DNA of 64,000 nt from NCBI GenBank assembly GCA_963565915.1, contig OY751488.1, positions 2,728,001 to 2,792,000 of the forward strand. Reading direction: 5' to 3'. Source of the DNA: Entoloma clypeatum. Taxonomy: Eukaryota > Basidiomycota > Agaricomycetes > Agaricales > Entolomataceae. The position numbers and the translations under genes are program-made. The notes beneath the pieces were generated by a model. That model made no database searches. It had not been told where the DNA came from and saw only the letters and a list, made by a program, of their open reading frames with translations. This document shows positions 38,681 through 62,476 of this stretch, piece after piece. Each line of letters opens with the position of its first letter. Positions within the stretch are counted from its first letter, which is position 1.

Positions 38681-38715
38681 TTGTTCATATCGATTTGTCA
38701 GAGCCAGCGGGGGAA

Positions 38716-39819: not shown

Positions 39820-40399
39820 GATGGTGTGATGAGGGGGGGGGTGGTTGTTTTTGGAACAGTAGTACCTTGCGTCGGGTGTGCGACCCTGTTCTAACGCTTA
39901 GGCGAGAAAAAATCTAAAAGAAAAAAAACCCAAAGAGCGATCTGTTTACCCAGGTAGCCGATTTACCCGAGCAAAGGAAGATCTAGGAAAAATGAAGTCC
40001 ACGCAGTCAGATCCCCTACACACGCTGGACTGGTCGATATCCTGAAATAGGGTCAGGGGTTGGAACACCTTTTGCGATCTAGACGTGTACGGTCTGCTCT
40101 CTCCAACCGTCACACGCGCCAGCAGCTTTCCTGAAGGTTAGTTGCGTCGGCCTTTGGTCACCTCGACACGGGACGGGCTCAACGTTTCCCTATGTGTCTC
40201 AAACGGCAACACTAGATATGGTGGGTGCACCAAGCGTTTCTCTTCTTATCCCTGAAGTCCGGGAGATCCCCCTTAACGCTAGGGTCCGTGTGTAATAATG
40301 AAGTGGGACTTTTAATGCAAAAGTGCGAAACGGCGGGGATAGTGATGATGGAGTGGGAAGTGTGTGTTTGGGCGGGCGAATAGAAAGAGCTTGTTCTTC
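39820..40399 (-). other. Untranslated leader of element 1
   Basis: 580 bp between the 5' LTR and the gag ATG, with no coding signal. It holds the primer-binding region next to the LTR, an A-rich stretch at about 39905-39930, and G-runs just upstream of gag. It is the likely site of packaging signals, by analogy with other elements. Confidence 0.7.
40388..40397 (-). promoter_or_regulatory. Self-complementary primer-binding site of element 1
   Basis: In element sense, AGAACAAGCT lies 2 nt inside the 5' LTR. It is the exact reverse complement of AGCTTGTTCT within the LTR (complement of 40507-40516). That LTR segment lies about 33 nt downstream of a TATATAAG box, so it should be the first bases of the transcript. 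No tRNA-type TGG start is present. This matches the Tf1/sushi self-priming layout. Confidence 0.7.
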
Positions 40400-40688
40400 T
40401 GTTGAGGCGACGCTAAGTCAAACGACGTCGCAAGCCCAAACTTAGGAACGAAGTGGAAAGATGATAAGAGAACTGTATTGCCAAGAGATCTAGCGGGAAT
40501 CTCAAGAGAACAAGCTATTGAATACAAGTGAAAGTACTTTACTTATATATGTAAATTCCATGAGGCTGCATTGTGGCAGCGTCATGCTGCGCGATAATGA
40601 TAAGATGTCCTCATGTACGATATGATGTAGATAAGATAAGATCGAGATAAGATAAGATAAAGTGAAAAGTGAAAATACAATCATAACA
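40400..40688 (-). repeat. 5' LTR of element 1 with promoter
   Basis: 289-bp LTR, the 5' one in element sense. A TATATAAG box sits at about 40542-40549 (complement). The predicted transcript start is about 40516. GATAAGATAA repeats fill the upstream part. Confidence 0.93.
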
Positions 40689-41911
40689 TCCTGCTTCCCG
40701 CGTGTCGTCTCTAAAGATCCTCACAAGCGCGTCCCTTGGTGACCCCATTGTGTCTCTCTGAGCATTGTGGTGTGGTGTGGAGGCTTACCATGGTGTGTTG
40801 TTATGTCAAGTGGAGTGAGGAGGTGTTGTGGGGGATGAGGGACGAGGGGGAGAAGGGAATGTGAGGGACTTCGAGGGCGCCAAGAAGACATTGGTTGACA
40901 TGGCAACATGTCAATATTTGGCACCCTCCAAACTCCATCAACCCTGAGCCGGCAACTTCCGATGTTGAACATTGAATGTTGAACCGCAGTCAGAGTGCCT
41001 TGTCGCCTCTGTCTTTTTCCCCGATCACCTACCTCCCCATAAGTATGCATCTCCCCCCTCATTTTCCTTTTCTTGCAATGCCTCTCACTCCCTTTGTCGC
41101 ATGGTAAACCACTGACTTGTGTGGCACCCTCTAGGTAAGTCATTCATTGGCCATGCCACATCACAAATGCATCACTCACTGTTTTAACAGACTAGGTTAC
41201 CTATTCAGCAGACACTGGTAAGCCCCCACTGCCATGCCGTACCACAGTACTTGCTGACCACCTTCTCCATAGGCTTGTACCACTCTCAACATTCACGTGA
41301 CTGGTCTGCGATTACATGCCCAGGCATGTGTGCATGTCTGTGGCGATACACAAGGGCCGGGGAGGTTAGGGCCATCATCTCGAGAAGGTGCAGAAGGGGG
41401 GGTGTCACTGAGTGGCATGTGATGCGTGAGGAATGGATGACATGTGGGGGGCAGCGGGGGCATTGAATTTGATGTCCCGTTATATTGTCTTTTTCATATC
41501 CAGGCTTGAGTATAGTAGAGTCTAATATAATGATTATTTCTCAATCTAATTCTGAATGCAAGGAGCATTAATAGGCCTAGGAAATGATTATGGTGGGATT
41601 ATGGCCAGAGGGTGTAGCCATAAAAAATGATGTGCTCGCGATGGTATATATGCTTCTATACTGAAAGATGGAAGTGTGGCAATGGCTGGTGATGTGATGG
41701 CGATGCTGGCTGGTCTGTTGCCATGCAAGCCAGCAGCATATGGGTTTGCTGATGCACCTTGCATAGCAAGGTCCCCAGCCGGGACTTTGCTCCATATAAG
41801 GCATCTTCTTCTGCCAGCTCAGATTATAACAGATATAAATACAATGTCATTGTCAATCTCGCTGCCGAGTTGAATGCCTTGAATGCATTTGAAAAGTAAA
41901 CTACATTATTA
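40689..41911. other. Intergenic DNA, no gene found
   Basis: 1.2 kb of non-coding sequence between element 1 and the MITE-like element. It contains GTG/GGT-rich stretches (about 40770-40860 and 41390-41460) and AT-rich patches. Open frames here (for example 40721-41143, minus) have low-complexity composition and no family resemblance. No repeat ends or RNA genes were recognised. Confidence 0.5.
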
Positions 41912-42289
41912 GAGCATATTTGCAATGGCTCCTGGGTCACTTTTCAAACAAATTGTTGAGAACTCGCTTAAAAGTGATGGCTCCACAAACTGGCTGAGTG
42001 ATCAGCGCATCAGCACATGAAAGCTTTGTGCCGACCATGGACGCGTGCTGACACCATAAGATAATCCTTGCCAGTGTTCTCCCACTTCTCTCGTCCTTGT
42101 ATTCTATCTCACAAAGCAAGGGAAAGCAATCAACAACTAAACAAGACATGTCTAGTCACTTGACCATAGATGCGTTGAATCAACCATCACTGATATACAG
42201 ATTTTACCGCATGATGGGCCTCCACTGCAGCAGCTGATGGTAACCTTTTGAAAAGTGAAACTGTCAAAAAGGCTGTTGCAAATATGCTC
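41912..42289. mobile_element. MITE-like element with terminal inverted repeats
   Basis: A 378-bp non-coding unit. Its ends are perfect 14-bp inverted repeats, GAGCATATTTGCAA and its complement. Similarity continues inward to a CACTTTTCAAA block on both sides. TA flanks each end (41910-41911 and 42290-42291), as expected for a Tc1/mariner-type target duplication. No transposase is encoded, so it would be mobilised in trans. Confidence 0.7.
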
Positions 42290-42368
42290 TATTCCACACC
42301 CCAAACTCCCAAGCCCCTTTCAAATCAATATTCGGGGAGGCCCCCACCGTTTAACAACCAGGAATGAA

Positions 42369-42913
42369 TGTCACGTAGCGTTTTTCTCAACGTTGGAAAA
42401 TGTCGGATGAGTCGGAGCGGAGTAGCGAATGAGCAGATGCGACAGATGCGACATCTGGCGGAAAGGACCTGGCTTCAACTTGTATGTTGCGCCCCACTCT
42501 TTGATGTGGTCCTTGATTTTGGATTGGTGGATGTCCGATGAGCGGAAGAGCGGATGAGTGGAGGTGACGGAGAGAATGCTCAAGGGCAAGTAGAGGTGGA
42601 TGCAAATGAGGTGTAACATATGATATTTGAACTGAGGTTCTATGACAGGTTTGGTACACTATTTATAGTGAACTAGAATGATCAGTATTACTATAAGTGA
42701 TGTGCAGATATTGGAGTTGACCATCGGAACATTCAGAGTACGGAGAGTAGCAAATGAAAAGTGAACAACATATGTCTACTTGTAAGTATGGTTGAGATGT
42801 TACATAGTAGAAGTATAATCAAATATAAATAGAATGTTGTCAGAGTGGATGTCGGATCGGATGAATTGTCAGAGTTGTCGGATAAGTCAGATGTGAATCA
42901 TATGGTTATGACA
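42369..42913 (-). repeat. 3' LTR of element A
   Basis: About 545 bp. In element sense it begins TGTCATAACC and ends CGTGACA. It contains a TATAAATAG box about 33 nt before AGTTCAAATATC, matching the promoter and transcript start of the sibling LTRs. The outer end is set by the TG...CA rule only, since no partner LTR exists. Confidence 0.7.
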
Positions 42914-43043
42914 GTATTTCCCTCTTAGGGCCAAACCCTGAGGCCCAATGAGGTAATACACATGACTGTTGGTTGAAAAACTTTGCGCGTGATTTTTCTC
43001 TCTTGTCACCCAACCACAACATCTATTCTGTTGCCTATCCGCC

Positions 43044-44065
43044 ATGTCCGCTGAGAACTCACCCCTTGCCACTCTCTGTGCTGAAAGGGAGCATCAGAAG
43101 AGAATCACCAAGGAGTTGGAGAGGAAGGTACAGGAGGCAGAGGAGCATGCAAAGGAAGAAGCAGAGCACGCAGAGGCAAAGAGGGCGGCGAAAGAGCGGA
43201 AACGAGCAGAGAGAAAGGCTGAGAAAGCGAAGGTGAAAGAGCCAGTTGCAGGTGCAGAAGCGGAAGCGGAGATGGCGGATGCAGAGGGGAAAAAGGTTAA
43301 GATGCAGGGAGTGTACAAGGACATGCTTGCGAGTTACAGACAGGGAAGTGAGGATTGCACCTCCTGCTTGAAGGTGGGGGACTTGTGCTTTTGGCCGTCG
43401 GAGTAAGTTCCCCTGTTTCTTTATAACTTTTCTTTATTAACTTGTTCTTTAGGAATGACAATGCTTCATCGTGCTGGTGGTGCCAGCATTTAAAATGAAG
43501 CTGCAGAACGGGAGTGGAAGCGGAGTCGGAGGTGAAGTGGAGGATGACCAAGGCAGTGAGGGTTGGTAAGACCAAGGTGGCAGGTGGTGTGACGAAGAAC
43601 GCAAAGGCGGGATCGTCCAAGGGAGAGGTTACCATGGAGGGATCACGGATGGCCACAGCATTGGAGGAGCTGGAGTTCATGCTGGAGGGGTTTGGTCCGC
43701 CGGAGGTGGTCATTGGGTTGGAGGTGGTGAAGGGGTTAAAGAACATGGTAAGAGAGATGCATTTGATAAAGGCGGAGTTGAGGGAACTACGGGAGATCAA
43801 GGAGCTCCTGTTGGTTGGATTGTTGCATGGAGGGAGGAATCAGAGGCTTCGGAGGAGGGATCTGATGAGGACAAGGATGCGGAGGAATATGATAGGGTAT
43901 TGGAGGAGTTGGCAAAGGAGGCAGAAGAAGAAGAAGAAAAAGAAGAAGAAACAAAGAAGAGGAAGCGGATGGAGGAAGCGGATGAGGAATCTGGATTGGA
44001 GTGGAACAAGGAGACGGAGGGGGTATCTAACAAGAAACAGAAAAAGTTGTTTTTTGTTAGTATAA
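43044..44065 (+). pseudogene. Antisense zinc-cluster/coiled-coil gene, copy A (one TGA)
   Basis: Runs opposite to the element's gag-pol, between pol and the 3' LTR. Exon 1 (43044-43402) gives MSAENSPLATLC, then a long Lys/Glu/Ala coiled coil, then CTSCLKVGDLC (CX2CX6C). A 50-bp intron (43403-43452, GTAAGT to CTTTAG, phase 2) follows. Exon 2 (43453-44065) opens with the second half-motif CWWC(x6)C, broken by a TGA at 43496-43498, then a coiled and acidic C-terminus. Spliced length is 324 codons in one frame. Its stop is about 31 bp from the pol stop. The paired CX2CX6C halves have Zn2Cys6 spacing with an 11-residue linker. Function unknown; a DNA-binding role is inferred. Confidence 0.75.
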
Positions 44066-44095
44066 AATATTTAATAGATTTTGCTTTTCTTCTTG

Positions 44096-45850
44096 TTACA
44101 AGCACAATAATGGGCCTGGTTTAGTTGGTTGAGTGGAGTGAAAGTCTGCTACCATATCTGCTGCATGTTCAAGCTCGGATGTGGGTAACCAAGAAAACTC
44201 TTCACTGGTGTCTTCATAACCTAACCAGCAGACGAGGTAAAGGAGTTTGCATCATCGTCTTTTATCAATCTTTGAGTTGATGAATTTCATATTCAGTTTC
44301 TCCTTCGATCTTGAGCGGAGGCAGAGGAGGTTGTATCTGGTTTGGAATCTTGTTGGGGGTTGCTGGTTTGAGCATAGATATGTGGAAGATGGGGTGTATA
44401 GCACGCATAGTGTCAGGTAGACGTAGTGTAAAGGAGTGCGTGCCGGGTTGGACTATGATTTCAAATGGGCCAGCATATTTGTCGGATAACTTTTGGGTGG
44501 ATCGTGTGGTGTGGAAGAACTTGGCTTTAACAAAGACTTCTTGTCCGACGCGGAGCGGAGGAGGTGGAGAACATCGGACGTCCGCAGGGCCTTGATAACA
44601 TTGTTGTGCCTCTGTGACAGCAGTCTTTAGTTCTTGATGTAAGTCATGTAAGTCGACGATGTATTGTCGAGCTTTATCGGATGCTAGATCACGTTCCAGA
44701 TGGAGTGTAATGTCGGGATAATAACCTTTGTTGGCGAAGAATGGTGATACACCAGTAGTGGCACTCAGAGTGTTGTTGTAAGCGAACTCCGCAAGCGGAA
44801 GCAAAGCGGACCAGTTGTCTTGCTGGTAGTTGCAGAAGATGCAGAGGTATTGTTCGAGTGTTTGGTTGGTGTGTTTGGTTTGACCATTGCCTTCAGGGTG
44901 ATATCCAGAAGTGAAGTGAAGTCTCATGTCGAGGGCTTTTGCAAGAGAGCGGAAAAAGCGGGAGATGAATTCAGGTCCGCAATCAGATGTGACATTTTGC
45001 GGAACTCCGTGCTTGGAAAAGACGTGAAGCACGAAAAGGTTTGCTAGGTCTTCGGATGTGCAATTAATGGTGGTAGAAATGAAGATGCCTTGTTTAGTGA
45101 GGCGGTCTACAATGACCAAAATCACATCGGAGCCAGCGGATGTCAGAAGGGGTTCAATGAAGTCCATGGAAATAGAATGCCAGGGACATTCAGGAATAGG
45201 GAGTTGTTTAAGCAGACCATAGGATTTATGATGTTGGGGTTTAGCGCGCATACAAGTGGTACATGACTTGCAATACTTTTTGATGAAGTCGCGCATTTCA
45301 GGCCAAGTGTATTCTTGTTGGATAAGACTAATAGTCTTATTTTGACCAGGGTGTCCAGCGAGGATATGGTCGTGCTTATTGTGGAGGATGCAGAGGCAGA
45401 GGTTGGATGAGTCGGGAACATAGATACATCCATTGTGGAGTAGATAACCTGCTTCATTCATGATCCAGCATGGATTAGGATTGTTGAGGAAAGAGGTGTA
45501 AATAGGATTGGTTGGAAGGGCGGAGAGGATGTCGGAGCGGAGTTGATCCATATCCATGATGATTGTGGCACAGAGGACAGGTGTATCTAACTCTGTTGCA
45601 TGAAGTGAAGTGGTGAGTTGTTCTTGTGTGAAGATGGGTTTGAAGTTGCTTGGATCGACGGATGAACAGTCGCTATTTCCCTCTTTAGGGTAGACATCCC
45701 ATCATCTACTTAAAAGATTGGGCTTTGTACCTAAACAGCCAGGGCGGAAGTGGATGATGAGATTGAACTGGCAGAGGTATTTGGACCAACGAGCAAGTAC
45801 TCAAGATTTTTGTGGTCCATTATGATATTGATGGGAGTAGCGGAGGCTTC
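44096..45850 (-). pseudogene. Element A pol remnant (RNase H to chromodomain)
   Basis: Starts mid RNase H (PINIIMDHKNLEY) at the 45850 breakpoint. It suffers a small deletion after EYL and has a TGA at 45702-45704 where intact element 2 has CGA (51285-51287). The integrase then reads well (44265-45557): zinc domain HKHD/H...CKSCTTC, core MDFIEPL, and TSDCGPEF, where the usual Arg is Cys. A frameshift cuts the chromodomain after EGETEYEI, although LGYED...FSWLP and the PGPLL end remain readable in another frame up to the TAA at about 44096. Arg codons are repeatedly changed to Cys or His. Confidence 0.85.
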
Positions 45851-46688
45851 AACCCTCCACTTCACCTCCGGTTACCACCCCGAAGGTGATGGCCAAACCG
45901 AACGCACTAACCAGACCCTCGAACAGTACTTGCGGATATTCTGCAACTACCAACAGGACAACTGGTCCGCTCTCCTTCCGATTGCGGAGTTCGCGTACAA
46001 CAATGCACCGAGTGCTACCACTGGCATATCTCCCTTCTTCGCTAACAAGGGTTACCATCTGAACATTACTGTTCACCCGGAACAAGACCTCGCCTCTTCC
46101 CGAGCCCGATCCTTCGTGACGGACTTAGACGAACTTCACCAAGAACTGAAAGCCACCATCTCTGACACTCAACGACGTTACCAAAAGTCCTCTGACAATA
46201 ATCGGATCGCACCTCCGATATTTTCTGTCGGACAACAGGTTTTCATCAAAGCACAGTTCTTCCACACAACACGCCCATCCAAGAAACTCTCAGAAAAGTA
46301 CTTGGGACCATACGAGATCATTGCACAACCCGGCACGCACTCCTTTACCCTCCGACTCCCCGACACATTCCGCGGTGTTCACCCCGTCTACCACGTCTCC
46401 ATGCTTGAACCCGCAACTCTGAACACCATTCCGAATCGGACCCAACCTCCGCCTCCTCTGATTGACATCGATGGAGAACTTGAGTATGAGATTGCTGAAA
46501 TAGTCGACTCAAAGATCGACCAACGATGTAGCTGCAAGCTACTATATTTTATCCGTTGCTTAGGATATGAAAACACTGATGAAGAATTTTCTTGGCTACC
46601 AGCCAATGAATTGGAAAACGCCCCCGAGCTTGTCTCCGACTTTCATTCCGCTTATCCTGACAAACTGGGTCCGCTCATGTCGCTCTGA
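45851..46688 (+). pseudogene. Element B pol 3' fragment (integrase end, chromodomain)
   Basis: Integrase from HFTSGYHPEGDGQTE (catalytic Glu) to the GPY/F-type module LGPYEIIAQPGTHSFTLRLP. Then comes a chromodomain-like end EYEIAEIVDS...CLGYENTDEEFSWLPA, stopping at 46688. The frame is open, but it lacks everything upstream of the integrase core. Arg to Cys changes are seen against element 2 (for example RCSCKLL for RRSCKLL). Confidence 0.87.
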
Positions 46689-47286
46689 AACAAGAAAAAA
46701 AAGTACTATTACTATCTACTTAGTACGTTGTTTCTTGTTTGACAGACCCTCCTCCTTGTCTGACTCCTCCTCCAACTCCGCCTTCTCCGACGGCTCCGAA
46801 ATCAACATGTCGGAATCATCCAACAGCTCAACTCCAACCTCTTCCTATTCACAAGATCCTCCCTAATCCTTCTCGCAATCCTCTTCTCCAGTCTCAACTC
46901 GTGCGTCTCCTCCCTCGTATCCATCTCCGACTCCGACCCTTCCTCCGACACCTCCAGCGACTTGGGTTGATACTTGATGTTCACCGAGCCTTCAACTGCT
47001 GTTAGCAGACGCCTCACCTGCCTCGTCTCTGCCAGTATCATCTTGAGGACACCCAAGACAGTGTCCTCTGACCCACTCTCCGATGGCATCTCCGATGCTT
47101 TCTTCTTCCCCTTATTCACCTTCACCGTTTTCTTCACCTCCGACTTTCCCTCCGATGCTCCGACCTCGCACTTCTTCTTGTCTTTGATACAACCCTTGCA
47201 GGACGACTTATTCCTAAATTAAAAGGTTAAAACAGAAAAAACAAACCAAAGAAGAACTCACTCATCGTGTTCGCACTCGACGCCCT

Positions 47287-48008
47287 TGTTATATCTGTCT
47301 CCGAATCTCCGATCCACTCCGATCGTCCTCCGACTTTCCGGACTTTCCGGACATCCGTTACCTCCACATCTCCGCACGTTGCCATCGTGCATTTCATATT
47401 CATAACTCCATGCCTTTATGCATTTCATATTCATATTCCCGTTTACTTATGCATCGCCTTTTCCGCATGGTCCGTTGACCGACATCTCCGATGTTCGTTA
47501 CAGTCGCTGGCAACTTACGCCACAACTCCGGACCTACTCCGACCATCTCCGTAAAGTAATCTCATTTAGATATTTAAGCTTGTACCATACCTGTAGTTCC
47601 TCAGTTCGAATATCAACAAAGTTCACTCCTCTACTCCCCGTTCATGCCAGAGATCCTCGCTGTGGTACAATACGCCGACGACATCCTCATCTACTGCTCT
47701 TCCTCCATCGTTACCCTTCGACGAGCTCAGTACTGTGTCCGAGTCACAACTCCGACGTCGTCCGACCATTTCCACGTCAACGTGTCTCTCACCGAGATCT
47801 TTCCGAGGACCTCCGCATCTCCGACCTCTCCTCCGACCTCCTGAAATTGGGACACCTTATCCAACAAACGGCGGCGCAACACATACGTTGAAGCCACGTC
47901 CCTCCCCTTCGTCGTTCCTCCGCATTCCCGGAGTTCCGCTCCGGCCTCAGTCCTTCGTCCGACCTCCAATGGACTCCGACGAAGCTCCGACTTTTCACCT
48001 ACTTAACA
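47287..48008 (+). repeat. 5' LTR of element 2 with promoter
   Basis: 722 bp, TGTTATATC to ACTTAACA. A TATTTAAG box (47571-47578) lies 32 nt before AGTTCGAATAT (47603-47613), the predicted transcript start. Rich in TCCG. Contains an out-of-place open stretch reading VVQYADDILIYCSS (about 47659-47700). Confidence 0.95.
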
Positions 48009-48010
48009 GT

Positions 48011-48021
48011 ATATTCGAACT
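48011..48021 (+). promoter_or_regulatory. Self-complementary primer-binding site of element 2
   Basis: ATATTCGAACT begins 2 nt after the 5' LTR. It is the exact reverse complement of AGTTCGAATAT at the predicted transcript start in the LTR (47603-47613). There is no tRNA-like TGG start. Confidence 0.72.
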
Positions 48022-48048
48022 CAAACCGTTTTTGGATTCCTGCTAGTC

Positions 48049-49206
48049 ATGGCACTCCGAAACACCAAGACAGCAAAAGCCGCAGAAGCTGGCACTTCTA
48101 GGCAACAGGTTCTACAAAATGTCGAACAACGTTTAACAGAACTATCCCCCGTAACTCCCACTACTCCGACACCTCCGGGTTTTCAGCCCATCACACCTCC
48201 GCATAATATTCCGATCCCCACTTCCCCCATAGAATCTGCACCCCCGTCTCCTCAGAATATTTTCGGCCCACAAGCCCTTGCGGATGCTTTCCTCTTAATG
48301 ACCAATGAACTCAAACGCAGCAAAGGTCACAAGCATCATAAAAAGGCTAAGGATCCGGACACCTTCGACGGTTCTGATCCCCGGAAACTGAACCAGTTCA
48401 TCCTCCAATGCACATTGTTCTTCCGCGACAACTCCGAGTATGACGATGACTCTGCCAAAATCACTCTCGCCATCTCTTTCCTCCGAGGCACAGCTCTCGA
48501 TTATTTCGAGCATTTCATCATCGAACCGGACCCGGATAACCCCCCGGACTGGTACGAAGATTGGTCCGCATTCCTCCGCACACTCCGCACGGAATTCGGG
48601 GTCATTGACCCCGTTGCGGATGCTGCCGACTCTCTGGACAATCTCAAAATGCGCAAAAATCAACATATTCTCAAGTATAATATCGAGTTCACACGCCTTG
48701 CTGCCAAAACGCACTGGGACAGCTCCGCCCTGCATCACCGGTACTACTCTGGGTTGGCGGAGCGGATTAAAGATGTCCTTGGGACTCAAGCAAAGCCAAG
48801 CACGTTACCAGCACTTAGGGAGCTAGCACAGACTATTGATGCTCGCCACTGGGAACGTCATCGTGAGAAGTCCCGCTCCGACAAGTCCGCATCCAAATCC
48901 GACAAATCCGAAGCTAAAACCCCCTCCGCAAACTCTGATAAAAACTCCAAAGCCAAACCACAGACACAGAACCAGGGCAAACAGTCGAAGCCTTCCTCCG
49001 CTCCCAAGTCCGACATCTCCGACAAACTCGGAAAAGACGGAAAGCTAACTCCGGAGGAACGCAAACGCCGTTTTGACAACAACCTCTGTATGTTTTGTGG
49101 CAAAGCTGGACACATCGCGAAAGATTGCCTGAAGTCTTCGTCCTCCGCCTCTAAGGCTAAGGCGCGCGCTGCCCAAGCCAAGACCACGGACGAATCAAAA
49201 AATTAG
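48049..49206 (+). CDS. Element 2 gag, 385 residues
   Basis: Starts MALRNTKTAKAAEAG 40 bp inside the 5' LTR. A Pro/Thr-rich N-terminus precedes the gag core (FDGSDPRKLNQFILQC, then WSAFLRTLRTEFG and LKYNIEFTRLAAKTHW). A Lys/Ser-rich linker (SDKSASKSDKSEAK) and a single CCHC knuckle, CMFCGKAGHIAKDC, follow. It ends DESKN and TAG at 49204-49206, right after a run of six A that forms a slippery heptamer. Confidence 0.95.
   Translation: MALRNTKTAKAAEAGTSRQQVLQNVEQRLTELSPVTPTTPTPPGFQPITPPHNIPIPTSPIESAPPSPQNIFGPQALADAFLLMTNELKRSKGHKHHKKAKDPDTFDGSDPRKLNQFILQCTLFFRDNSEYDDDSAKITLAISFLRGTALDYFEHFIIEPDPDNPPDWYEDWSAFLRTLRTEFGVIDPVADAADSLDNLKMRKNQHILKYNIEFTRLAAKTHWDSSALHHRYYSGLAERIKDVLGTQAKPSTLPALRELAQTIDARHWERHREKSRSDKSASKSDKSEAKTPSANSDKNSKAKPQTQNQGKQSKPSSAPKSDISDKLGKDGKLTPEERKRRFDNNLCMFCGKAGHIAKDCLKSSSSASKAKARAAQAKTTDESKN
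49197..49203 (+). promoter_or_regulatory. Putative -1 ribosomal frameshift site, A AAA AAT
   Basis: The heptamer is in register with the gag codons (tcA AAA AAT TAG) and directly abuts the gag stop. Slipping back one base enters the pol frame (TTA GCG GGC), which stays open to 52901. X XXY YYZ with A and T is a known class of -1 slippery sequence. A downstream stimulatory structure was not assessed. Confidence 0.7.
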
Positions 49207-52200
49207 CGGGCAGTCCACAGGACTCTGTACGGCCTGAGGACTGCGTTGAACCCATCCGTACTACCGCTCTACTCAACGCTTCCGCTCTTTCCGATCCCAA
49301 TTCCCTCCGTGTCCGACTTACATCTCCGCTTATCTCCGATTCTTCTCCGATAGCTGCCCTTGTGGACTCCGGCTCTACTCATTGTTTTATTGACTCCCGT
49401 TATGCTTCATCCTATAAACTCCCTTTCACCTCCATACCTCCGATCGAACTTAAATTATTTGACGGAACGTCCAACTCCGTCATTACTCATGCGGTTGATC
49501 TCCCTGTATACTTTTCCTCCGGTGAATATATGGCCATTACAGCCTACGTGACTCCGCTCGATTCCTCCTGTTCTATGGTTCTTGGATACAACTGGCTCAC
49601 CCGCTACAATCCTATGATTGACTGGGTATTGGGCAGTATTACTTTCCGTCCACAGCTCTTGAAGGAGTCTCCGACCTTGACGTCTTCTGCCAGGTCAGCT
49701 CCGCTACCTCCGCAGACCTCTCCCGATACTCCGACCTCCGACTCCGGCACACCCGCTGCTACTCCGGACGTTGTTCCGAATATTGCATTGATAAATGCAG
49801 CCGCATTTGTGTGCGCCTGCAAACTTCCGGGTGCCCAATCCTTCCGAATTCACCTCTCCGACCACACGATCTCCACCCAATCCGTTTCTATGTCCGAGGA
49901 ACCTCCGGACCTCTCCCATATCCCAGAGGAATATCACGATTTTGCCGATGTTTTTAGCAAGACAAAAGCAGACACCCTCGCTCCGCATCGTCCGTATGAC
50001 CTCCGCATCGAGTTAGAAGACGGATCGACTCCCCCTATTGGCCCTATGTACTCCATTTCACAATCCGAACTATCTGCCCTGCGAAACTTCATAGACGAAC
50101 ATTTGGCCATTGGCTTCATTCGCCCCTCTCGCTCTCCGCATGGCGCTCCGGTCCTCTTTGTCCGAAAGAAGGACGGTTCCCTCCGCCTGTGCGTCGACTA
50201 TCGGGGCCTGAACAAAGTTACCAAGAAGGATCGATACCCTCTTCCGCTCATCTCCGACCTCCTTTCCACTGCCGGAAAAGCGCGTGTTTATACCACTCTC
50301 GATCTCCGGCATGCATATCATCTTGTCCGCATTGCCGACGGAGATGAATGGAAAACCGCTTTCCGCACTCGTTACGGATCGTTTGAATGGCTTGTTATGC
50401 CTTTTGGACTATCCAACGCCCCTGCTGCTTTTCAGCGATTTGTGAATGACATCTTCAGTGACCTCCTCGATGTTACAGTGGTGGTCTACCTTGACGACAT
50501 TCTCATTTACTCCGACGACCCCGCCAAGCACCCCGACGATGTCAAGGAAGTTCTCCGACGTCTCCGCAAGAACGGACTTTACGTCCGCTCCGACAAGTGC
50601 GAATTTTCTGTCGACACAGTCGAATATCTTGGTTTCATCCTTTCTCCCTCCGGTCTCCGCATGTCCGAAACCAAGGTGAAGACCATTCAAGAGTGGCCTG
50701 AACCTCGGAAAGTGAAGGACGTACAGTCTTTCCTAGGATTCGCAAATTTCTATCGACGTTTCATCCACGGTTATTCGGACATCGTTGTTCCGCTCACCCG
50801 ACTCACCCGGAAGGGTACTCCGTTCCGTTTCTCCGACTCCGCACGGAGTGCGTTCAACGAGTTGAAGCTCGCGTTTACCAAAGCACCGGTCCTCACTCAT
50901 TGGATTCCTGATCGACCTATTATCATCGAGACGGACGCCTCCGACTACGCACTTGGTGCTATTTTGTCCATCCGGACCTCCGACGAGGAGATACACCCAG
51001 TAGCGTTCCACTCCCGCACCTTCACCGCCCCGGAACTCAACTACGACATGCACGACAAGGAGTTACTTGCTATCCATGAAGCATTCAAGGTATGGCGACA
51101 TTACCTTGAAGGCTCCGCTGCTCCGATTGACGTTGTCACGGACCACAAGAACCTGGAGTATTTCGCCACTACAAAGGTTCTCACCCGCCGACAGGCCCGG
51201 TGGTCCGAGTTCCTCTCTCAGTTCAATCTCTTGATTCGCTTCCGCCCCGGACGTCTCGGTACCAAGCCGGACTCTTTGACTAGACGATGGGACGTCTATC
51301 CCAAAGAGGGGAATAGCGACTATGCATTGGTAAACCCAAGCAACTTCCGACCAGTCTTTTCCCAAGAACAGCTGTCCGCATCTCTCCGAGCTACGGAGTT
51401 GTTCACCCCTGTTCTCCGCGCCACAGTCATAATGGACATTGAACAGTTGCACTCCGACATCCTCCGTTCACTCCCATCCGACCCAATCTATGCCGACCAT
51501 CTCAAGGAGCCCAAACCGCACTGGTCCGTAGACTCCGACGGTTTCCTCCGTCATAGTGGTCGCATTTATGTCCCCGACTCCGATAACCTCCGGCTCCGCA
51601 CCCTCCGCAACAAGCACGACCATATTCTCTCCGGACACCCCAGACAGAACAAGACAGTTAGTCTCATTCAACGAGATTATACTTGGCCTGGTGTTCGAGA
51701 CTTTGTCAAAAAGTACTGCAAATCCTGCACCACTTGCATGCGCTCTAAACCCCAACGCCACAAGCCCTATGGTATGCTGAAGCAACTCCCAGTTCCGAAC
51801 CTTCCGTGGAACTCCATATCCATGGACTTCATCGAGACACTTCCGACCTCCGGCGGTTTTGACGCAATCCTTGTTATTGTTGACCGAATGACAAAACAAA
51901 GCATTTTTGTTCCGACTACGATCCACTGCACCTCCGAAGATCTAGCCACCTTGTTCATCCTGCATGTGTTCTCCAAGCACGGAGTACCGGAGCATGTCAC
52001 CTCCGACCGAGGCCCGGAGTTCGTCTCCCGCTTTTTCCGCTCCCTCGGAAAAGCCCTCAACATGACTCTGCACTTCACCTCTGGCTACCATCCTGAAGGC
52101 GACGGTCAAACCGAACGTACCAACCAGACCTTGGAACAGTACCTCCGCATTTTCTGTAACTATCAACAGGACAACTGGTCCGAACTACTTCCGCTTGCGG

Positions 52201-52901
52201 AGTTCGCGTACAACAATGCTCCGAGTGCTACGACCGGGATCTCGCCCTTCTTTGCCAATAAAGGTTATCATCCGAACCTCTCCGTCCATCCGGAGCGCAA
52301 CCTCGCATCCGCCCGTGCCCGACAATTCGTCGTAGACCTGGACGAGCTTCACCAAGAACTCAAATCTACAATCCTAGAAGCTCAACGACGTTATCAAGGC
52401 CCCGCCGATCTCCGGCGTGCTCCGCCCCCTCCGCTCGAAGTAGGACAGCAAGCTTTTGTGAAGGCTAAGTTTTTCCACACTACACGACCCTCCAAAAAGC
52501 TGTCTGAAAAGTACCTTGGCCCCTTTGACATCCTTGCCAGGAATGGTACACACTCTTACACCCTCCGACTTCCGGACACCATACGCGGTGTTCACCCCGT
52601 TTTCCACATCTCCATGCTGGAGCCATCTGTTCCGAACGACATTCCAAACCGGACAGTAACTCCGCCTCCTCCGGTCGACGTTGAAGGAGAAGTGGAATAC
52701 GAAATCGCCGAAATCCTTGACACCAAACTGGATCGTCGGCGTTCTTGCAAACTGCTCTACCTAGTCCGTTGGCTAGGCTATGAAGGAACCGATGAGGAAC
52801 AGTCCTGGCTACCCGCCACGGAACTCGAACACGCGACGGACTTAGTCGCGGACTTCCACTCCGCGTATCCGGAGAAACCGGGCCCCTTATCACACCTATA
52901 G
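49203..52901 (+). CDS. Element 2 pol polyprotein
   Basis: Reached by -1 frameshift from gag. Order: aspartic protease (ALVDSGSTHCFID); reverse transcriptase (LCVDYRGLNKVTKKDRYPLP, GLSNAPAAFQRF, VVYLDDILIYS); RNase H (IETDASDYALGAIL, VTDHKNLEYF); integrase zinc domain (NKHDHILSGH... CKSCTTC); integrase core (MDFIETLP, TSDRGPEF, GDGQTERTNQTLEQYL). A GPY/F-type module and C-terminal chromodomain (LLYLVRWLGYEGTDEEQSWL) complete it. All catalytic residues are present and no stop interrupts. The chromodomain suggests targeting to methylated histone H3 heterochromatin, as in other chromoviruses. Confidence 0.95.
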   Translation, partial: LAGSPQDSVRPEDCVEPIRTTALLNASALSDPNSLRVRLTSPLISDSSPIAALVDSGSTHCFIDSRYASSYKLPFTSIPPIELKLFDGTSNSVITHAVDLPVYFSSGEYMAITAYVTPLDSSCSMVLGYNWLTRYNPMIDWVLGSITFRPQLLKESPTLTSSARSAPLPPQTSPDTPTSDSGTPAATPDVVPNIALINAAAFVCACKLPGAQSFRIHLSDHTISTQSVSMSEEPPDLSHIPEEYHDFADVFSKTKADTLAPHRPYDLRIELEDGSTPPIGPMYSISQSELSALRNFIDEHLAIGFIRPSRSPHGAPVLFVRKKDGSLRLCVDYRGLNKVTKKDRYPLPLISDLLSTAGKARVYTTLDLRHAYHLVRIADGDEWKTAFRTRYGSFEWLVMPFGLSNAPAAFQRFVNDIFSDLLDVTVVVYLDDILIYSDDPAKHPDDVKEVLRRLRKNGLYVRSDKCEFSVDTVEYLGFILSPSGLRMSETKVKTIQEWPEPRKVKDVQSFLGFANFYRRFIHGYSDIVVPLTRLTRKGTPFRFSDSARSAFNELKLAFTKAPVLTHWIPDRPIIIETDASDYALGAILSIRTSDEEIHPVAFHSRTFTAPELNYDMHDKELLAIHEAFKVWRHYLEGSAAPIDVVTDHKNLEYFATTKVLTRRQARWSEFLSQFNLLIRFRPGRLGTKPDSLTRRWDVYPKEGNSDYALVNPSNFRPVFSQEQLSASLRATELFTPVLRATVIMDIEQLHSDILRSLPSDPIYADHLKEPKPHWSVDSDGFLRHSGRIYVPDSDNLRLRTLRNKHDHILSGHPRQNKTVSLIQRDYTWPGVRDFVKKYCKSCTTCMRSKPQRHKPYGMLKQLPVPNLPWNSISMDFIETLPTSGGFDAILVIVDRMTKQSIFVPTTIHCTSEDLATLFILHVFSKHGVPEHVTSDRGPEFVSRFFRSLGKALNMTLHFTSGYHPEGDGQTERTNQTLEQYLRIFCNYQQDNWSELLPLAEFAYNNAPSATTGISPFFANKGYHPNLSVHPERNLASARARQFVVDLDELHQELKSTILEAQRRYQGPADLRRAPPPPLEVGQQAFVKAKFFHTTRPSKKLSEKYLGPFDILARNGTHSYTLRLPDTIRGVHPVFHISMLEPSVPNDIPNRTVTPPPPVDVEGEVEYEIAEILDTKLDRRRSCKLLYLVRWLGYEGTDEEQSWLPATELEHATDLVADFHSAYPEKPGPLSHL

Positions 52902-52971
52902 AAGCACGCAAGACTCTCATATTGCAAAAAAATAATAAAAAATAATGAAAAGAAACTAGAGGGGGGAGGGG

Positions 52972-53860
52972 CTACTGGGTTTTGGCCTTTTTGGCCGGCG
53001 GACCCTCATTCTCCGACCCTTCCTCCGACTCCTCCGTTTTTTCCCCTGTTTCTTCCTCCGCTTTCCTCGCCTGCTTTTTCTCCTCCTCCATTTTCTCCGC
53101 TTGCAGTTCCGCAAGCTCCCCCTCGTCCAACCCCTCGTCCTCTTCCTCGTCCTCTTCCGCACTTTTCGCCTCCCCTCCGTCATCCTCCGACTCCGGAGCC
53201 GCCGCCTCCAGCAAGAAGTTCCGGTAGGCGAGGTGGTTGTTTAAAATTTGCAGCTGCCGGAGCAGCGCCCAACCGACCCTCGCCGACCGCTCCTCTCTCT
53301 CCTCCAGAGCCTCCCGGAGCTCCCGGAGCTCCTCCGCGACCCCTGCGCCGCAGCAGTTCTTTGCCCCGCTCGGGCCCGCGACCTCCGCGACGGCCTCCTC
53401 CGTCTTCCCCCGTTTACGCTTCACCCTCGTCTCGCCGGTTTTCAGGCAAACCCGTTTGCCGTCTTTACACCGCTGGCATGCGGTGCCTTTCCCCTGCCTA
53501 AGGAGACTGTCAGTAAGAAAAAGAAGATGAAAAAAAAAAAGCGGGTACTCACAATGGCCACTTGCACTCCACCTTCGCCTGCGCACAGGCCTGACACGCC
53601 TCCCCCCGGACCTCCGATTCCTCCGCTCTGCTCTCCGCCCTCTGTTTCCCCGCCTTCTTCGCCCTCTTCCTCTCCGCCTCCGCCTCTGCCTTCTTCTTCG
53701 CCTCTGCCTCCCTCGCCCTCCTCTCGGCCTCCGCCTTCTTCCTTGCCTCCGCCTCCTCCTTTTCCTTGCGTATCTGCGCCAGACGGCGCAGGAGCTCCTC
53801 TTCGGAGTCGTCTAGGTTGGCGCTGGATCGGGGGGGCTGTGTGCTCGAGCCTTGGGGCAT
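52972..53860 (-). CDS. Antisense zinc-cluster/coiled-coil gene, copy C (intact)
   Basis: The undamaged member of the antisense family, in element 2 between pol (stop 71 bp away, convergent) and the 3' LTR (121 bp from its ATG). Exon 1 (53860-53553) begins MPQGSSTQPPRSSANLD. It forms a long Arg/Glu/Ala/Lys coiled coil and ends CQACAQAKVEC plus KWP. A 46-bp phase-2 intron (53507-53552, GTGAGT to TGACAG) follows. Exon 2 (53506-52972) gives CQRCKDGKRVC, a basic TRVKRKRGK stretch, a leucine-rich helix, and an acidic Glu/Asp tail with a final PPAKKAKT, probably a nuclear signal. 280 residues. Paired CX2CX6C halves with a 13-residue linker match Zn2Cys6 spacing. Its function is not known to me; nuclear DNA binding and dimerisation are inferred. 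Confidence 0.8.
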
Positions 53861-53980
53861 GTTGGTGGTAACTGGAAGAAACCCTTGAAAGCCGCTCACC
53901 TCCGTTAAATAACCGAGACCACATGACCTTGTTTATTTTCTCACGGTCTTCCATGGGTGTCAGACCTAAGAGGGGAATAC

Positions 53981-54702
53981 TGTTATATCCGTCTCCGAAT
54001 CTCTGATCCACTCCGATCGTCCTCCGACTTTCCGGACTTTCCGGACATCCGTTACCTCCACATCTCCGCACGTTGCCATCGTGCATTTCATATTCATAAC
54101 TCCATGCCTTTATGCATTTCATATTCATATTCCCGTTTACTTATGCATCGCCTTTTCCGCATGGTCCGTTGACCGACATCTCCGATGTTCGTTACAGTCG
54201 CTGGCAACTTACGCCACAACTCCGGACCTACTCCGACCATCTCCGTAAAGTAATCTCATTTAGATATTTAAGCTTGTACCATACCTGTAGTTCCTCAGTT
54301 CGAATATCAACAAAGTTCACTCCTCTACTCCCCGTTCATGCCAGAGATCCTCGCTGTGGTACAATACGCCGACGACATCCTCATCTACTGCTCTTCCTCC
54401 ATCGTTACCCTTCGACGAGCTCAGTACTGTGTCCGAGTCACAACTCCGACGTCGTCCGACCATTTCCACGTCAACGTGTCTCTCACCGAGATCTTTCCGA
54501 GGACCTCCGCATCTCCGACCTCTCCTCCGACCTCCTGAAATTGGGACACCTTATCCAACAAACGGCGGCGCAACACATACGTTGAAGCCACGTCCCTCCC
54601 CTTCGTCGTTCCTCCGCATTCCCGGAGTTCCGCTCCGGCCTCAGTCCTTCGTCCGACCTCCAACGGACTCCGACGAAGCTCCGACTTTTCACCTACTTAA
54701 CA
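53981..54702 (+). repeat. 3' LTR of element 2
   Basis: 722 bp, identical to 47287-48008 except for three C/T differences, each in a CpG in one copy. Followed by the second GCCCT. Confidence 0.96.
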
Positions 54703-55251
54703 GCCCTTCACAATGCACCTATCGCAGGTGCCGACCCCAACCCCAACTCCCGACCCCTCTCCGACCATCGCCGACACCTCCTCCACCTTCCTCTTCTTCG
54801 TTGTCCTCTTCTTCTTCTCTGTCTGCGGCTCCCCCGACCCCTTGCCCGACGCGCCTTGTGCAGCGGCCACCTCATCGGCCCTCTTCTGAGCCGCCAGCTC
54901 TGATGCCCGATGTGTTTCCTCCACTACCCGCGCCGCCTCCGCAGCCCTCTCTTCCTCCGCTCTCCGCTCCTCCTCAGCCTTCTTGGCAGCCTCCTCCTCC
55001 GCCGCTCGCTTCTTAGCCTCCACCTCCGTGAGTTTGGCCTGCAGCACCTCCAATTCTTTCTGGAAATCAGTTGCCAACATTTTGAGGATTTATCGGAAGA
55101 GTTTTTTTTCAAGCGGAAAGATAATGGGGGGGAACAAGAAGAAAGAACCACTCAGACGGTATTTTCAACCAATGCATCACATGACACAGTTCACGCGCAC
55201 CAGCCATCTAGGTCCTTAGGCCTCATGGGTTCGGCCCTAAGGGGGAAATAC

Positions 55252-55727
55252 TGTTACATTCCAATCAATTCTGACGATTTCTGACCAATCCCGACACCTC
55301 CGACATCTCCAACATTTTGACTAATACTTATTATGCATACTTACTATTATGAATCTCGTTACTACATACATTACTTACATCCGACCATGTCAAGCATCTC
55401 CGACAGCCACTCGTTATCCGACTCCGACGAAGCCACACGTCCTCCGACATAGTATTTAAACTTATGTAGAATCATGTATTAGCTTCAGTTGGAATATCAA
55501 CTTAGATTCGACATCACACCTCCCGTCCTCTTTCCGACTCTTAACTTGAGTCTGACCTCTGATCCTCCGATCCTCCGATCTTCCGAAATAAGGACACCGA
55601 CGAATTAGCGAGGGCGCAACACACAAGTTGAAGCCAAGTCCTTGCCCCTATGTTGCACGCGCTCCGACGTTCCGACGTTCCGACGCGTCCGACGTAGCTC
55701 CGACGTTTTGTCAATCAGTTCTTAACA
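55252..55727 (+). repeat. 3' LTR of element B
   Basis: About 476 bp, TGTTACATTCC to TTCTTAACA, preceded by a GGGGGAAATAC purine tract. A TATTTAAAC box and AGTTGGAATATC mark the promoter and transcript start by comparison with element 2. The GCGCAACACACAAGTTGAAG block is shared with the LTRs of element A and element 2. The partner 5' LTR is lost. Confidence 0.8.
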
Positions 55728-56439
55728 CTCATGGTCTAATAATAGTTGGAAGTGATAGAACTCATAAATAGATATGTATTCACCTTCTGAAGCACTTTGT
55801 ATAATTTTTAGAAGTCCAGATAAGATAGAAATAATGAAATGTGCAGATTTCAGTAAAAGTGTTATATCTCCCTAATGAATGAGCCAAATTTGAAAAACAA
55901 ATGTGCTGTGAGATCTCCTGAATGAGGAGAATCCAAAGCTGAAACAAAAAAGTTTGGTCAAATTTTCGACCTATTTTGCTCATATTCACCTCATCAAGTC
56001 CTTTAATTTTATTTGAAGGGTCTGAATAGGTTTACATACACTGTTTCAATAGCATATGTATAGTATATTTAGAGTACAAACATTGTGCAAAGGAGGAAGC
56101 TAGAAAATGTTGTTTGTTGTGTTTGAAAACACCATGCCACACTGTTCAGCATGATTTACATTGTATTTTGATGCATCAATTTGAAGCACCAACTTTCTAC
56201 CATCCATAGCTCATGTATATAACTCTATATATACTTCCTATGAGTTTCTTGATATGTCTACATAAGGTAAGAATTATTTTTGTGGGTTTTGGTGCCACAG
56301 TTTGGGCATCGAGGGCACGATTTCCAACGACGTGCATGGCTCAGCATTGATGCCGAGCATGCTCAGCAATCACTGAAAGTCAAACCATAACTGCCAGCAA
56401 AACCTTCCCACCCTTTTTTTATCCCCCACCACCACTCCA
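55728..56439. other. AT-rich intergenic DNA, nothing recognised
   Basis: About 700 bp of AT-rich sequence after element B. No coding signal beyond short chance frames, and no terminal repeats found. It may be an old degraded repeat. Confidence 0.45.
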
Positions 56440-57185
56440 CCCGGCCACCACATCTGCCCAAGGGCCACTACTCGCGCATAACGGCCACCACTCATGCCCA
56501 ACGGCCCTCTCTTCCGCCCTACGGCCACCTTTCATGCCCAACGGCATCCCTTTGCACCCAACGGCCACCTTTCATGCCCAACGGCATCCCTTTGCACCCA
56601 ACGGCGTCCCTTTGTGCCCAATGGCGTCCCTTTGTGCCCAATGGCGTCCCTTTGTGCCCAACAGTCCCGACTCATGCCCAACCGCATCCCTTCGCCCTCA
56701 ATGTGTCAACCCATGCCCAACGCTGTCCTTTCGCCCCCAACGCCATCCCTTTGCCCCCAACGCCGTCGACCCATGCCCAATGGCCGCCTTTCACGCCCAA
56801 CGGTCCCGACTTGCGCCCACTGCCATTGACCCACGCCACGCTGTTTCTTTGCCCCCAACACTGTCCCTTTGCCCTCAATGCCATCAACCCACACACAACG
56901 GCTGCCTTTCACGCCCAATGGCTGCCTTGTGTCCCCAACAGCTGCCCCTCTTGCCCAACTGCCCCGACTAGTGCCCAACTGCCCCGACTAGTGCCCCACG
57001 GTCCCTCTAATGCCCAACGGCCGCCTCGCGTCCTCAACGCCGTCGACTCACACCCAGCACCCTTCCTTCACACGCAACGGCCTCCCTTCACGCCGTACGG
57101 CACCACTCACCTGCCACGACACGTGCCCAATGGCCCCCTTTCACACCCAACAGCATTGAGTCACGCCCCAGAGCACATGGGGCCG
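56440..57185. repeat. 20-bp minisatellite
   Basis: A degenerate tandem array of a 20-bp unit, roughly ACGGCGTCCCTTTGTGCCCA, about 35 copies. Neighbouring units are almost identical near 56600-56650 and diverge outward. Because 20 is not a multiple of three, all three plus frames stay open, and staggered frames starting at 56494, 56534 and 56574 (two units apart) encode the same Ala/Pro/Asn-rich pattern. No real gene is indicated. Confidence 0.85.
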
Positions 57186-57443
57186 GGCTGAGCCCATGGA
57201 GGACCAATTGAGGGAGTACAACGCGCGCGCGCAGCATTGGGCTGTGCACACATGTCCTTAGTTGTAATATATTGGTTTAAACCGGTCTCACTTCTTTGAG
57301 GTAAATGGAACCGATGCACTGGTCTTGCATTGGTCCGGTTCAGTTCTTTTGAGATCATGTGAACTGAAAAATCGGTCTCGGTCTCGGTCTCTAAATTCTG
57401 AGGGTCAAAAACTGGACCGAACCGGACTTTTAAACATTAAATG
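57186..57443. other. Non-coding stretch with imperfect hairpin
   Basis: Contains a (CG)n run near 57220, an imperfect inverted repeat around TGGAACCGATGCA / TGCATTGGTCCGGTTCA (about 57307-57343) and CGGTCT repeats near 57375. No gene seen. Confidence 0.4.
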
Positions 57444-57660
57444 ACTGATGCAAGGTTGATTCGCTATGGACGGAAGAATATGCTGTCTATGTCATTGTTA
57501 GAATGGTTGAGTGTCATGTCGGTTCAAGATGAGTGCATTGAATACACAGGCAATGGTGCACTGCATAGACAAACAACTGACACAAGGTTGAGTTGTTACA
57601 GACAGCAGAATATGCTGTTTATGTCATTGGTAGAGTGGGGCTCTCAAACCTGTACATACA
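57444..57660. repeat. Diverged 132-bp tandem duplication
   Basis: The segment starting ACTGATGCAAGGTTGA (57444) recurs 132 bp later as ACTGACACAAGGTTGA (57576). Both contain a further shared block, AGAATATGCTGT.TATGTCATT. The second copy is incomplete. No coding role is supported. Confidence 0.6.
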
Positions 57661-57761
57661 TCATCAGGATCTGATCAGCTGATACACACGGTTGACGGAT
57701 GACTTTGATGAAGGCATATTCTGCCTCTCAATGACTTTATTGACACTGGTACATGCAAAAT

Positions 57762-58185
57762 TCACAACTCATGGAGCATGAGCAACACCTCCACCGCAAC
57801 AGCCAGGCGAGGATCATTCCTTATCTCAGCATTGTTGAGAGAAAACATATTAGCCCAGGTCACTTCAATGGCCGCATTGGTGATGGTCCTGTCAATCAAA
57901 ACACTGGCGAATAGTAAGTTGGTAAACCTAATGATCACAATGTAATACACTATCTACTCACCTTTTAGCTATGTCCTTATTGGCCATGACAATTGCCTCT
58001 TCACTCTCGATGGCATTCAGTTCCTCCAAAGCATCGAGCTCTCACACATGCTCCAAGACAAGCCCCGCCACAATTTTTGTCTGCTCATGAGTGAAACTGC
58101 AGCCTGCTCCACCGCAAGTATCACTGGCCAATGCTGCTACACTTCCATCCCAGTACGTCTGCTGAGCCGGAGGGCGTGGCGCCAT
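57762..58185 (-). pseudogene. Unknown small gene broken by TGA
   Basis: A two-exon reading starts at the ATG at 58183-58185 (MAPRPPAQQTYWDGSVAAL). It continues with ASDTCGGAGCSFTHEQTK, then a TGA at 58042-58044, then ELDALEELNAIESEEAI and VMANKDIAKR. A GTGAGT...GACAG intron leads to TITNAAIEVTWANMF, NNAEIRNDPRLAVAVEVL and TGA at 57762. The coherent helical protein and clean splice sites suggest a former gene of about 110-120 residues. Family not recognised. It may belong to a transposon, since no host gene lies nearby. The TGA fits a lost Arg CGA. Confidence 0.5.
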
Positions 58186-58265
58186 GGTCTCAAGCGGCAC
58201 TAGTGTTTTAAAGTCACATTAAGTCAAGTTAATGGCCTTAAAATCCATTAACCTAACCAGTACTT

Positions 58266-61024: not shown

Positions 61025-61695
61025 AGGGACCTCCGTTTTAGGGACATAATTTCATCTAGATTGTCTAGTCCAAGACGACTGTGCTCCTTGTAGATGCTCG
61101 ATAATCTGGCCAAGGTACCATCACGTCCGCTCACTACCACTGGATAGTTGTTTATTAACTCTTTCTTGTACTCTTCCCATGTTCCTGTAGCATAAGAATT
61201 GAGTGTTGTCCATTCTTCAGAGACACTATCTGCATAGCCTCTGATTAACTTTTTCTTTTCCATGGTATCGGTAATACCTGTGTGGTCTAAGCAGATTTCG
61301 ACTTCATTGATAAATCTTAAGAGCTCGGAGGCCTTTTCTTTATCAAATCTCAGTGCTCCTCATTCACTTCGACACTGCATTCTCAAACCATTCTTCGGTG
61401 CAGTTGCTGCAACATTCTGTGTATTGGTAGCCATTGTATATGTTGACAATTGACTGTTAAGATTTTGATTTTGAGTTTCTATTGGTTGCACAATGGATAC
61501 TGAATGCTCTCGTGATGCTAGTAGCCTTTCTGGTTCAAGGTTCTCTAATGTTCTCTTTTGAATATGCTTTATGGGCTCTTCAAGAGGTCCTACTAGTTCT
61601 GCTCCTGCTTTCAATAGACTACAGGTCACGCACTCGCAAGCTGTTTCAATAGATTGCAAATTTGTTGCTTTTGAAGATGACGCTTTTAGAGACAT
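61025..61695 (-). pseudogene. Retrotransposon gag fragment with one TGA
   Basis: From the ATG at 61695 (MSLKASSSKATNLQSIETAC) the reading runs to a TGA at 61360-61362. It then continues in the same frame as LRFDKEKASELLRFINEVEI and TMEKKKLIRGYADSVSEEW up to LDNLDEIMSLKRR, where the C-rich end of the inverted-repeat element cuts it off. It resembles the gag domain of a different gypsy family from elements 1, 2, A and B. The matching LTR remnant lies just upstream (61910-62043). Confidence 0.75.
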
Positions 61696-62474: not shown

Positions 62475-62476
62475 AG

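Follow-up and report, generated by a model that had tools for sequence, protein, structure and literature searches.

In the 64,000-nucleotide stretch of the Entoloma clypeatum genome analyzed here (the window; positions 2728001-2792000 of contig C6, within a searched host genome of 60.1 Mb and 20 contigs), three long terminal repeat (LTR) retrotransposons of sibling Ty3/gypsy families, called elements A, B and 2, each have a gene on the antisense strand in the interval from pol to the 3' LTR. This gene encodes a real protein under purifying selection. A first-pass annotation of the DNA had proposed it, and both position and strand are confirmed (Table 1). The three genes share one plan, in which an intron in phase 2, about 50 bp long, separates two CX2CX6C motifs, and the composition of four intact relatives indicates a charged N-terminus, a basic stretch and an acidic C-terminus.

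The plan proposed at first holds for all three elements, but the genes of A and B are broken. The element 2 copy (53860-52972, 277 amino acids) is the only antisense gene in the window that is open throughout, while that of element A has an in-frame TGA (43496-43498) within the second CX2CX6C and a frame change near 43.8 kb. Exon 1 of the element B gene contains the whole of element 2 (insertion span 47282-54707). Introns had been put at 46 to 50 bp and the linkers between the motifs at 11, 8 and 13 residues, which is correct for A and B; for element 2 both values depend on the acceptor, as TGACAG, ending at 53507, nine bases before the CCTTAG of Table 1, gives an intron of 46 bp and a linker of 13. 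An alignment of one protein each from A, B, a B branch and the element 2 type (E2) shows that all four have the six Cys, the charged N-terminus and a KK-rich stretch in the C-terminus (SNKKQRK, SNKKQCTK, SNKKQRTE and PAKKAKTQ), and is weak outside these features, in low-complexity stretches.

Selection was assessed on disjoint pairs from 73 aligned copies (48 E2, 20 B and 5 A). Changes at codon positions 1, 2 and 3 numbered 193, 200 and 373 in E2 (16 pairs), 121, 117 and 223 in B (8 pairs) and 27, 36 and 41 in A (2 pairs), and the ratio of nonsynonymous to synonymous change (pN/pS) in the antisense frame was 0.40 in E2 (13 pairs), 0.45 in B (8) and 0.41 in A (2). The sense frame that shares the third position gave 0.49, 0.60 and 0.52, respectively, but contains stop codons, and the other four frames gave 1.05 to 1.35 in E2 and B and 0.71 to 1.25 in A. 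The codon-position pattern and pN/pS thus single out the antisense frame, and the comparison between copies that the first-pass annotation had suggested as a check on its claim of selection came out in favor of that claim. By region (12, 8 and 2 pairs for E2, B and A), pN/pS was 0.37, 0.37 and 0.16 in the N-terminus, 0.08, 0.25 and 0.41 in the Cys cluster (the A value coming from 14 changes) and 0.55, 0.50 and 0.73 in the C-terminus, so that the cluster is the lowest region in E2 and B. Because the copies had been selected for six Cys, the cluster value is biased, to which the figures without the Cys codons (0.11 in E2 and 0.32 in B) are a partial answer. The C-terminus of pol, as a control, gave 0.46 in E2 (10 pairs) and 0.34 in B (1 pair).

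The gene is abundant in the host genome, with at least 150 matches for E2 exon 2, 154 for B exon 2, 163 for B exon 1, 143 for A exon 1 and 138 for A exon 2, counts that include several fragments belonging to one copy. As expected for a conserved protein by the first reading, the six Cys recur in further copies: together with a spliceable intron they are kept in 74 of 84 loci examined (49/50 E2-like, 20/22 B-like and 5/12 A-like), and none of the 84 is a cleanly intronless copy. The intron was in phase 2 in 74/74, a figure biased that way by a script that permitted about 30 to 90 bp and penalized other phases. The linker had 8, 10 or 11 residues in 59 of the intact loci and 13 in 15 E2 loci, where the script took the other acceptor. 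Two of the ten failing loci are the broken copies in the window (L039 and L051), one has a Cys-to-Ser (L070) and one a Cys-to-Arg change (L089); the remaining six are all A-like and have stops, are shifted in frame or lack exon 2. The lower A-like rate may be explained by the choice of loci, which were picked for their similarity to the degraded copy in the window. Three of the 12 A-like loci (L051, L053 and L058) have the identical in-frame TGA within the second Cys motif, a pattern that fits CpG decay of a single codon. Five B-like loci (L083-L086 and L091) are 72 to 90% like the window B copy in exon 1 and just 61 to 67% in exon 2, which looks like recombination between sub-branches, with a switch, by eye, just past the second Cys motif.

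The location is equally regular. Among the best 150 of 2123 candidate pol C-termini, ranked by likeness to element 2 (106 E2-type and 39 B-type among the positives), 145 are followed within 1.5 kb by an antisense exon 2 that lies on the other strand, and none has one on the same strand. The comparison used 140 E2 and 73 B exon positions, and its five misses are not proof of gene absence; for the A type, the presence of the gene beside pol comes from the window copy. Among 5.8 billion proteins, in a database possibly poor in fungi, no homologs were found for E2 (E <= 0.001) or A (E <= 1), and B had four weak matches (E of 0.012 to 0.78).

The cluster had been likened to the GAL4-type zinc clusters, and here the spacing fits while the profile matches fall short. 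Zn2Cys6 clusters follow CX2CX6C-X5-12-CX2CX6-8C, with CGG as the half-site of GAL4-type proteins. The antisense proteins agree with this spacing, apart from the linker of 13, which exceeds 12, and they resemble GAL4-type proteins in the double CX2CX6C, the linker of 8 to 11 residues and the CGG in their candidate target, described below. Unlike GAL4-type proteins, they have an intron between the two halves, the Pfam matches of the antisense proteins include no fungal transcription-factor domain, and all 13 cores scanned stay below the 21-bit cut-off of Pfam Zn_clus (PF00172), 12 of them at 7.0 to 18.0 bits and L082 not being listed; three of the 13 were run again with exact flanks. As a control, both GAL4 halves were listed in the Zn_clus scan, at 20.2 and 27.4 bits. 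The five E2 cores among the 13 match ADD_DNMT3 better than Zn_clus, at 11.7 to 21.2 bits (cut-off 26), and the A and B cores have additional weak Pfam matches. The stricter PS00463 residue pattern is matched in 33/49 E2, 0/20 B and 0/5 A, and a search of the PDB by sequence, with A as the only query, gave no Zn2Cys6 chain. The half-matches do not follow a consistent order, as the second motif of A matches the first half of Zn_clus and the first motif of B the second half. A permuted cluster was considered and is not claimed, because the B branch L087 and the E2 copy L038 match in the normal order (profile positions 2-38 and 2-33). As Pfam does not confirm it, we term the cluster Zn2Cys6-like and do not place it in Zn2Cys6.

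The sense strands of the three elements bear arrays of CTCCGA, which contains CGG and is densest in the LTRs. CTCCG or TCCGA ranks first among the 5-mers in each of seven LTR-side stretches, which together represent the three families. TCCGA occurs 15 times in the element 2 5' LTR (2.3 expected), 14 times in its 3' LTR (2.1), 15 times on the LTR side of B (1.4) and 6 times on that of A (0.6), whereas the reverse, TCGGA, occurs 0 (1.0 expected), 0, 0 and 1 times (0.6), respectively. Densities reach 20.8/kb in the element 2 5' LTR, 29.1/kb on the B LTR side and about 10/kb in element 2 gag-pol, against 0.4/kb in gag-pol of the neighboring element C (2 vs 3.3 expected) and 1.0/kb in two other window stretches tested; window positions 1-34000 hold 35 vs 39.0 expected. 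Of all 6-mers in element 2 as a whole, CTCCGA ranks highest (54 vs 18.7 in a second-order model). A motif restricted to the LTRs is ruled out by gag-pol of element 2, with 50 TCCGA vs 10.1 expected, and codon use was rejected as the cause, as CTCCG occurs in all three phases of pol (25/20/17), although TCCGA there favors one phase (21/40).

In relatives, mean TCCGA counts on the LTR sides are 14.8 vs 2.3 expected in recent E2 copies (29 loci), 11.4 vs 1.7 in old ones (19), 16.8 vs 1.4 in B (11) and 8.2 vs 1.0 in A (5), with mean TCGGA counts of 0.2, 0.6, 1.5 and 3.4 (1.0-1.3 expected). Among A, B and E2, alignment of the LTR sides is limited to patches of 29 to 108 bp. In the older E2 copies CpGs are kept slightly more within the motif than outside it (0.76 vs 0.66), which is weak support. 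Throughout the genome, same-orientation TCCGA triples number 4597 (2360 + 2237), against 13 (2 + 11) for the reversed pattern, and CTCCGA triples 986 + 807 against 1 + 1 in the control. A mixed-orientation unit (TCCGAGCCTGTCGGATGGGTTCCACTCCGA) is repeated many times genome-wide, e.g., at C1:1287232 and C1:1321674, in many cases with a further unit about 1.8 kb away, and is another dispersed repeat.

The motif also occurs in family F, a chromovirus relative seen in one copy, which has CTCCGA arrays at both ends. Its arrays are 5769 bp apart, whereas the LTR starts of element 2 are 6694 bp apart, and its pol aligns up to residue 1177/1246, about 0.3 kb short of the array, the final 0.3 kb not having been read; there would therefore be no room for an antisense gene. 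Its pol (2.1 kb) holds 14 TCCGA vs 2.7 expected, and TCGGA likewise exceeds its expectation (7 vs 2.7). This family rules out a strict link between motif and gene, as with its single, apparently gene-less copy the motif extends beyond the protein-encoding elements and their close relatives, and any coupling is conjectural: either family F borrows a protein that other elements encode, or the motif is used by a different factor. The motif is missing in eight control loci (L001-L008), which are weak controls, as against element 2 pol four show no match, three 24% and one 37% identity. Better controls are element C, in which pol runs up to the LTR and neither an antisense gene nor TCCGA enrichment is found, and the copia-type L093, without TCCGA enrichment (6 vs 7.1 expected). 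This last element (C1:1266000-1275500, copia-type by eye) lies within a relic that bears TCCGA arrays.

Our preferred reading, held tentatively and at a little less than an even chance, is that the selected gene encodes a nuclear zinc-cluster, coiled-coil protein that binds the CTCCGA/TCGGAG arrays of its own family and activates or unsilences it. Antisense transcription would start in the 3' LTR, which in element 2 would be 53981-54702, and the transcript would be spliced at the intron of about 50 bp. The predicted product would bind zinc, enter the nucleus and form a coiled coil, the last two judged by eye from composition, and would recognize the CGG-core arrays in the LTRs and body of the element; binding may then switch on the family or prevent its silencing, the sign of the effect being part of the conjecture. 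An intron on the antisense strand would stay in the genomic RNA, and this would account for the lack of any cleanly intronless copy among the 84 loci despite RNA-mediated movement.

Two known systems serve as models, HBZ of human T-cell leukemia virus type 1 (HTLV-1) for the place of the gene (PMC10186651) and VANC for the arrays (PMC5735166, PMC10398659). In the accessible text of these papers, HBZ and the APH proteins are described as antisense, spliced, transcribed from the 3' LTR and acting on the sense promoter (PMC10186651), while VANC, an anti-silencing protein of Arabidopsis VANDAL elements, is the element's own protein and binds dense motif arrays of one orientation (PMC5735166), as are also found here. 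HBZ, however, is retroviral and has a bZIP where the present protein has a Cys cluster. VANDALs are not LTR elements, and the VANC arrays are tandem repeats in noncoding DNA, whereas here the motif lies in gag-pol too; VANC binding has been demonstrated, while that of the present protein is predicted, with a motif common to the apparently gene-less family F. It is possible, but rather doubtful, that a zinc-cluster factor of the element's own and the CTCCGA sites filling its LTRs and genes form a VANC-like self-recognition system outside plants, in a fungal retroelement, which relatives lacking the gene, family F for instance, could exploit. A literature search found no such system in a retroelement outside plants.

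Several findings weigh against activation of the element through its own arrays. The Zn_clus matches lie below the cut-off; the motif is enriched inside gag-pol as well, where CTCCGA ranks third; and five A-type relatives have an excess of TCGGA on the LTR side (3.4 vs 1.0). The orientation of the arrays is a strong bias and not a rule, since mixed-orientation triples also exceed their control (289 + 263 = 552 vs 1 + 5 = 6), at about one eighth of the same-orientation frequency; all triple counts are inflated by copy number, though spacers differ among the listed arrays. The arrays need no gene in cis, as family F has them apparently without one, and because A, B and 2 are sibling families, they may have inherited the gene and the arrays together.

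The same protein and target could also act with the opposite sign, repressing the 5' LTR and limiting copy number as HBZ does in reducing HTLV-1 5' LTR expression (from the accessible text of PMC10186651). The shared place, with a spliced antisense transcript from the 3' LTR, and the arrays in both element 2 LTRs fit such a repressor, but the many near-identical copies per family speak against strong self-limitation and the Pfam scans of the antisense proteins gave no bZIP match, so that we consider it unlikely. Slightly less unlikely is that a host zinc-cluster factor binds the arrays and drives the LTR, the antisense protein being employed elsewhere, e.g., in a nuclear cDNA or integration complex: family F has arrays apparently without the gene, and Zn_clus genes are present in the host genome (18 six-frame matches). 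By itself, however, a host factor leaves the gag-pol enrichment and the strong constraint on the cluster unaccounted for.

The enrichment of one strand over the whole element would be accounted for by a nucleic-acid chaperone or packaging protein acting on the genomic RNA, as the sense-strand motif is enriched in the LTR, gag and pol of element 2. The Cys spacing is unlike that of the retroviral zinc knuckle and the highest motif density is in the LTRs, which makes this role quite improbable. We give hardly any credence to an incidental reading frame with the antisense RNA itself as the agent, for instance as a source of small RNAs. Retrotransposon antisense RNA can feed silencing, according to the accessible text of PMC7264820, and long open frames occur on the other strand here too, but the frame-specific constraint and the Cys conservation disfavor it.

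The first-pass annotation knew of no earlier description of such a gene. Antisense accessory genes as such are known from plants and Botrytis, so this part needs qualification; a zinc-cluster, intron-bearing one was not found in literature searches of fungal LTR elements, with subscription papers mostly outside their scope, and the word antisense is absent from the fungal surveys PMC3248453 and PMC2864245. The accessible texts of PMC7264820 and PMC11963269 describe, in plant Ty3/gypsy elements, aORF-3R genes between pol and the 3' LTR (Grande gene23, RIRE2 and Retand TRP28), which resemble the present gene in place, strand, presence in most copies and a suspected DNA-binding and nuclear role. 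Their domain differs (TRP28, PF04195, without a match in the antisense proteins scanned here), Retand belongs to a plant non-chromovirus lineage, unlike the chromovirus element 2, and the words intron and zinc are absent from these accessible texts. The antisense extra gene brtn of the Boty-like elements of Botrytis cinerea (Zhao et al. 2011, as cited in the accessible text of PMC7264820 and PMC8365987), likewise situated between pol and the 3' LTR, is comparable as an antisense gene of a fungal LTR retrotransposon. The same plant papers, as far as accessible, still term the function of LTR retrotransposon antisense genes unknown (PMC7264820, PMC11963269). Here such a gene is under selection, exists in hundreds of copies, has a recognizable predicted metal-binding core and has a candidate target repeated in the same element. 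If our preferred reading is true, it would show how a retroelement retains an intron, by placing it on the nongenomic strand, and the gene would be a self-serving switch of its own element family.

Element 2 is a young nested insertion, with LTRs 99.6% identical and a 5-bp target-site duplication, GCCCT, at 47282-47286 and 54703-54707. It carries a chromodomain at the end of pol (PF00385, 27.9 bits; cut-off 25.1), as in chromoviruses; the Pfam scan listed none for the partial pol pieces of A and B.

Table 1. Features of the three antisense genes, their elements and related elements (window positions, except for family F)
Feature	Position	Strand	Remarks
Element 2 antisense exon 1	53553..53860	-	ATG at 53860; first CX2CX6C 53596-53564
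Element 2 antisense intron	53498..53552	-	phase 2, GTGAGT..CCTTAG, 55 bp; linker 10
Element 2 antisense exon 2	52972..53497	-	second CX2CX6C 53478-53446; stop ends 52972
Element A antisense exon 1	43044..43402	+	includes first CX2CX6C
Element A antisense intron	43403..43452	+	50 bp, phase 2; linker 11
Element A antisense exon 2, broken	43453..44046	+	end from alignment to intact relative
Element B antisense exon 1, first part	54703..55080	-	ATG at 55080; cut by element 2
Element B antisense exon 1, remainder	47262..47286	-	past inserted element 2; includes duplication 47282-47286
Element B antisense intron	47214..47261	-	48 bp; linker 8
Element B antisense exon 2	46802..47213	-	second CX2CX6C
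Element 2 5' LTR	47287..48008	+	722 bp
Element 2 gag	48049..49206	+	DUF4939-like, 28.6 bits, slightly below cut-off 29
Element 2 pol	49161..52901	+	protease, reverse transcriptase, RNase H, integrase, chromodomain
Element 2 3' LTR	53981..54702	+	722 bp; 3 mismatches vs 5' LTR
Element A LTR side	41900..43039	- (sense = minus)	LTR ends not delimited
Element A pol, 3' part	44265..45701	-	upstream
Element B pol, 3' part	45735..46688	+	
Element B LTR side	55245..55760	+	LTR ends not delimited
Gypsy element C	34488-40689	-	pol 35% identical to element 2 pol
Family F, one copy (L094)	C1:3073579-3079382		chromovirus relative, pol 38-46% identical

In window positions 56300-64000, TCGGA is more frequent than expected (15 vs 6.6), and TCCGA shows no such excess (8 vs 6.3). 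A degenerate repeat lies at 56391-57191, where open frames give runs like PNGVPLCPMASLCAQ.

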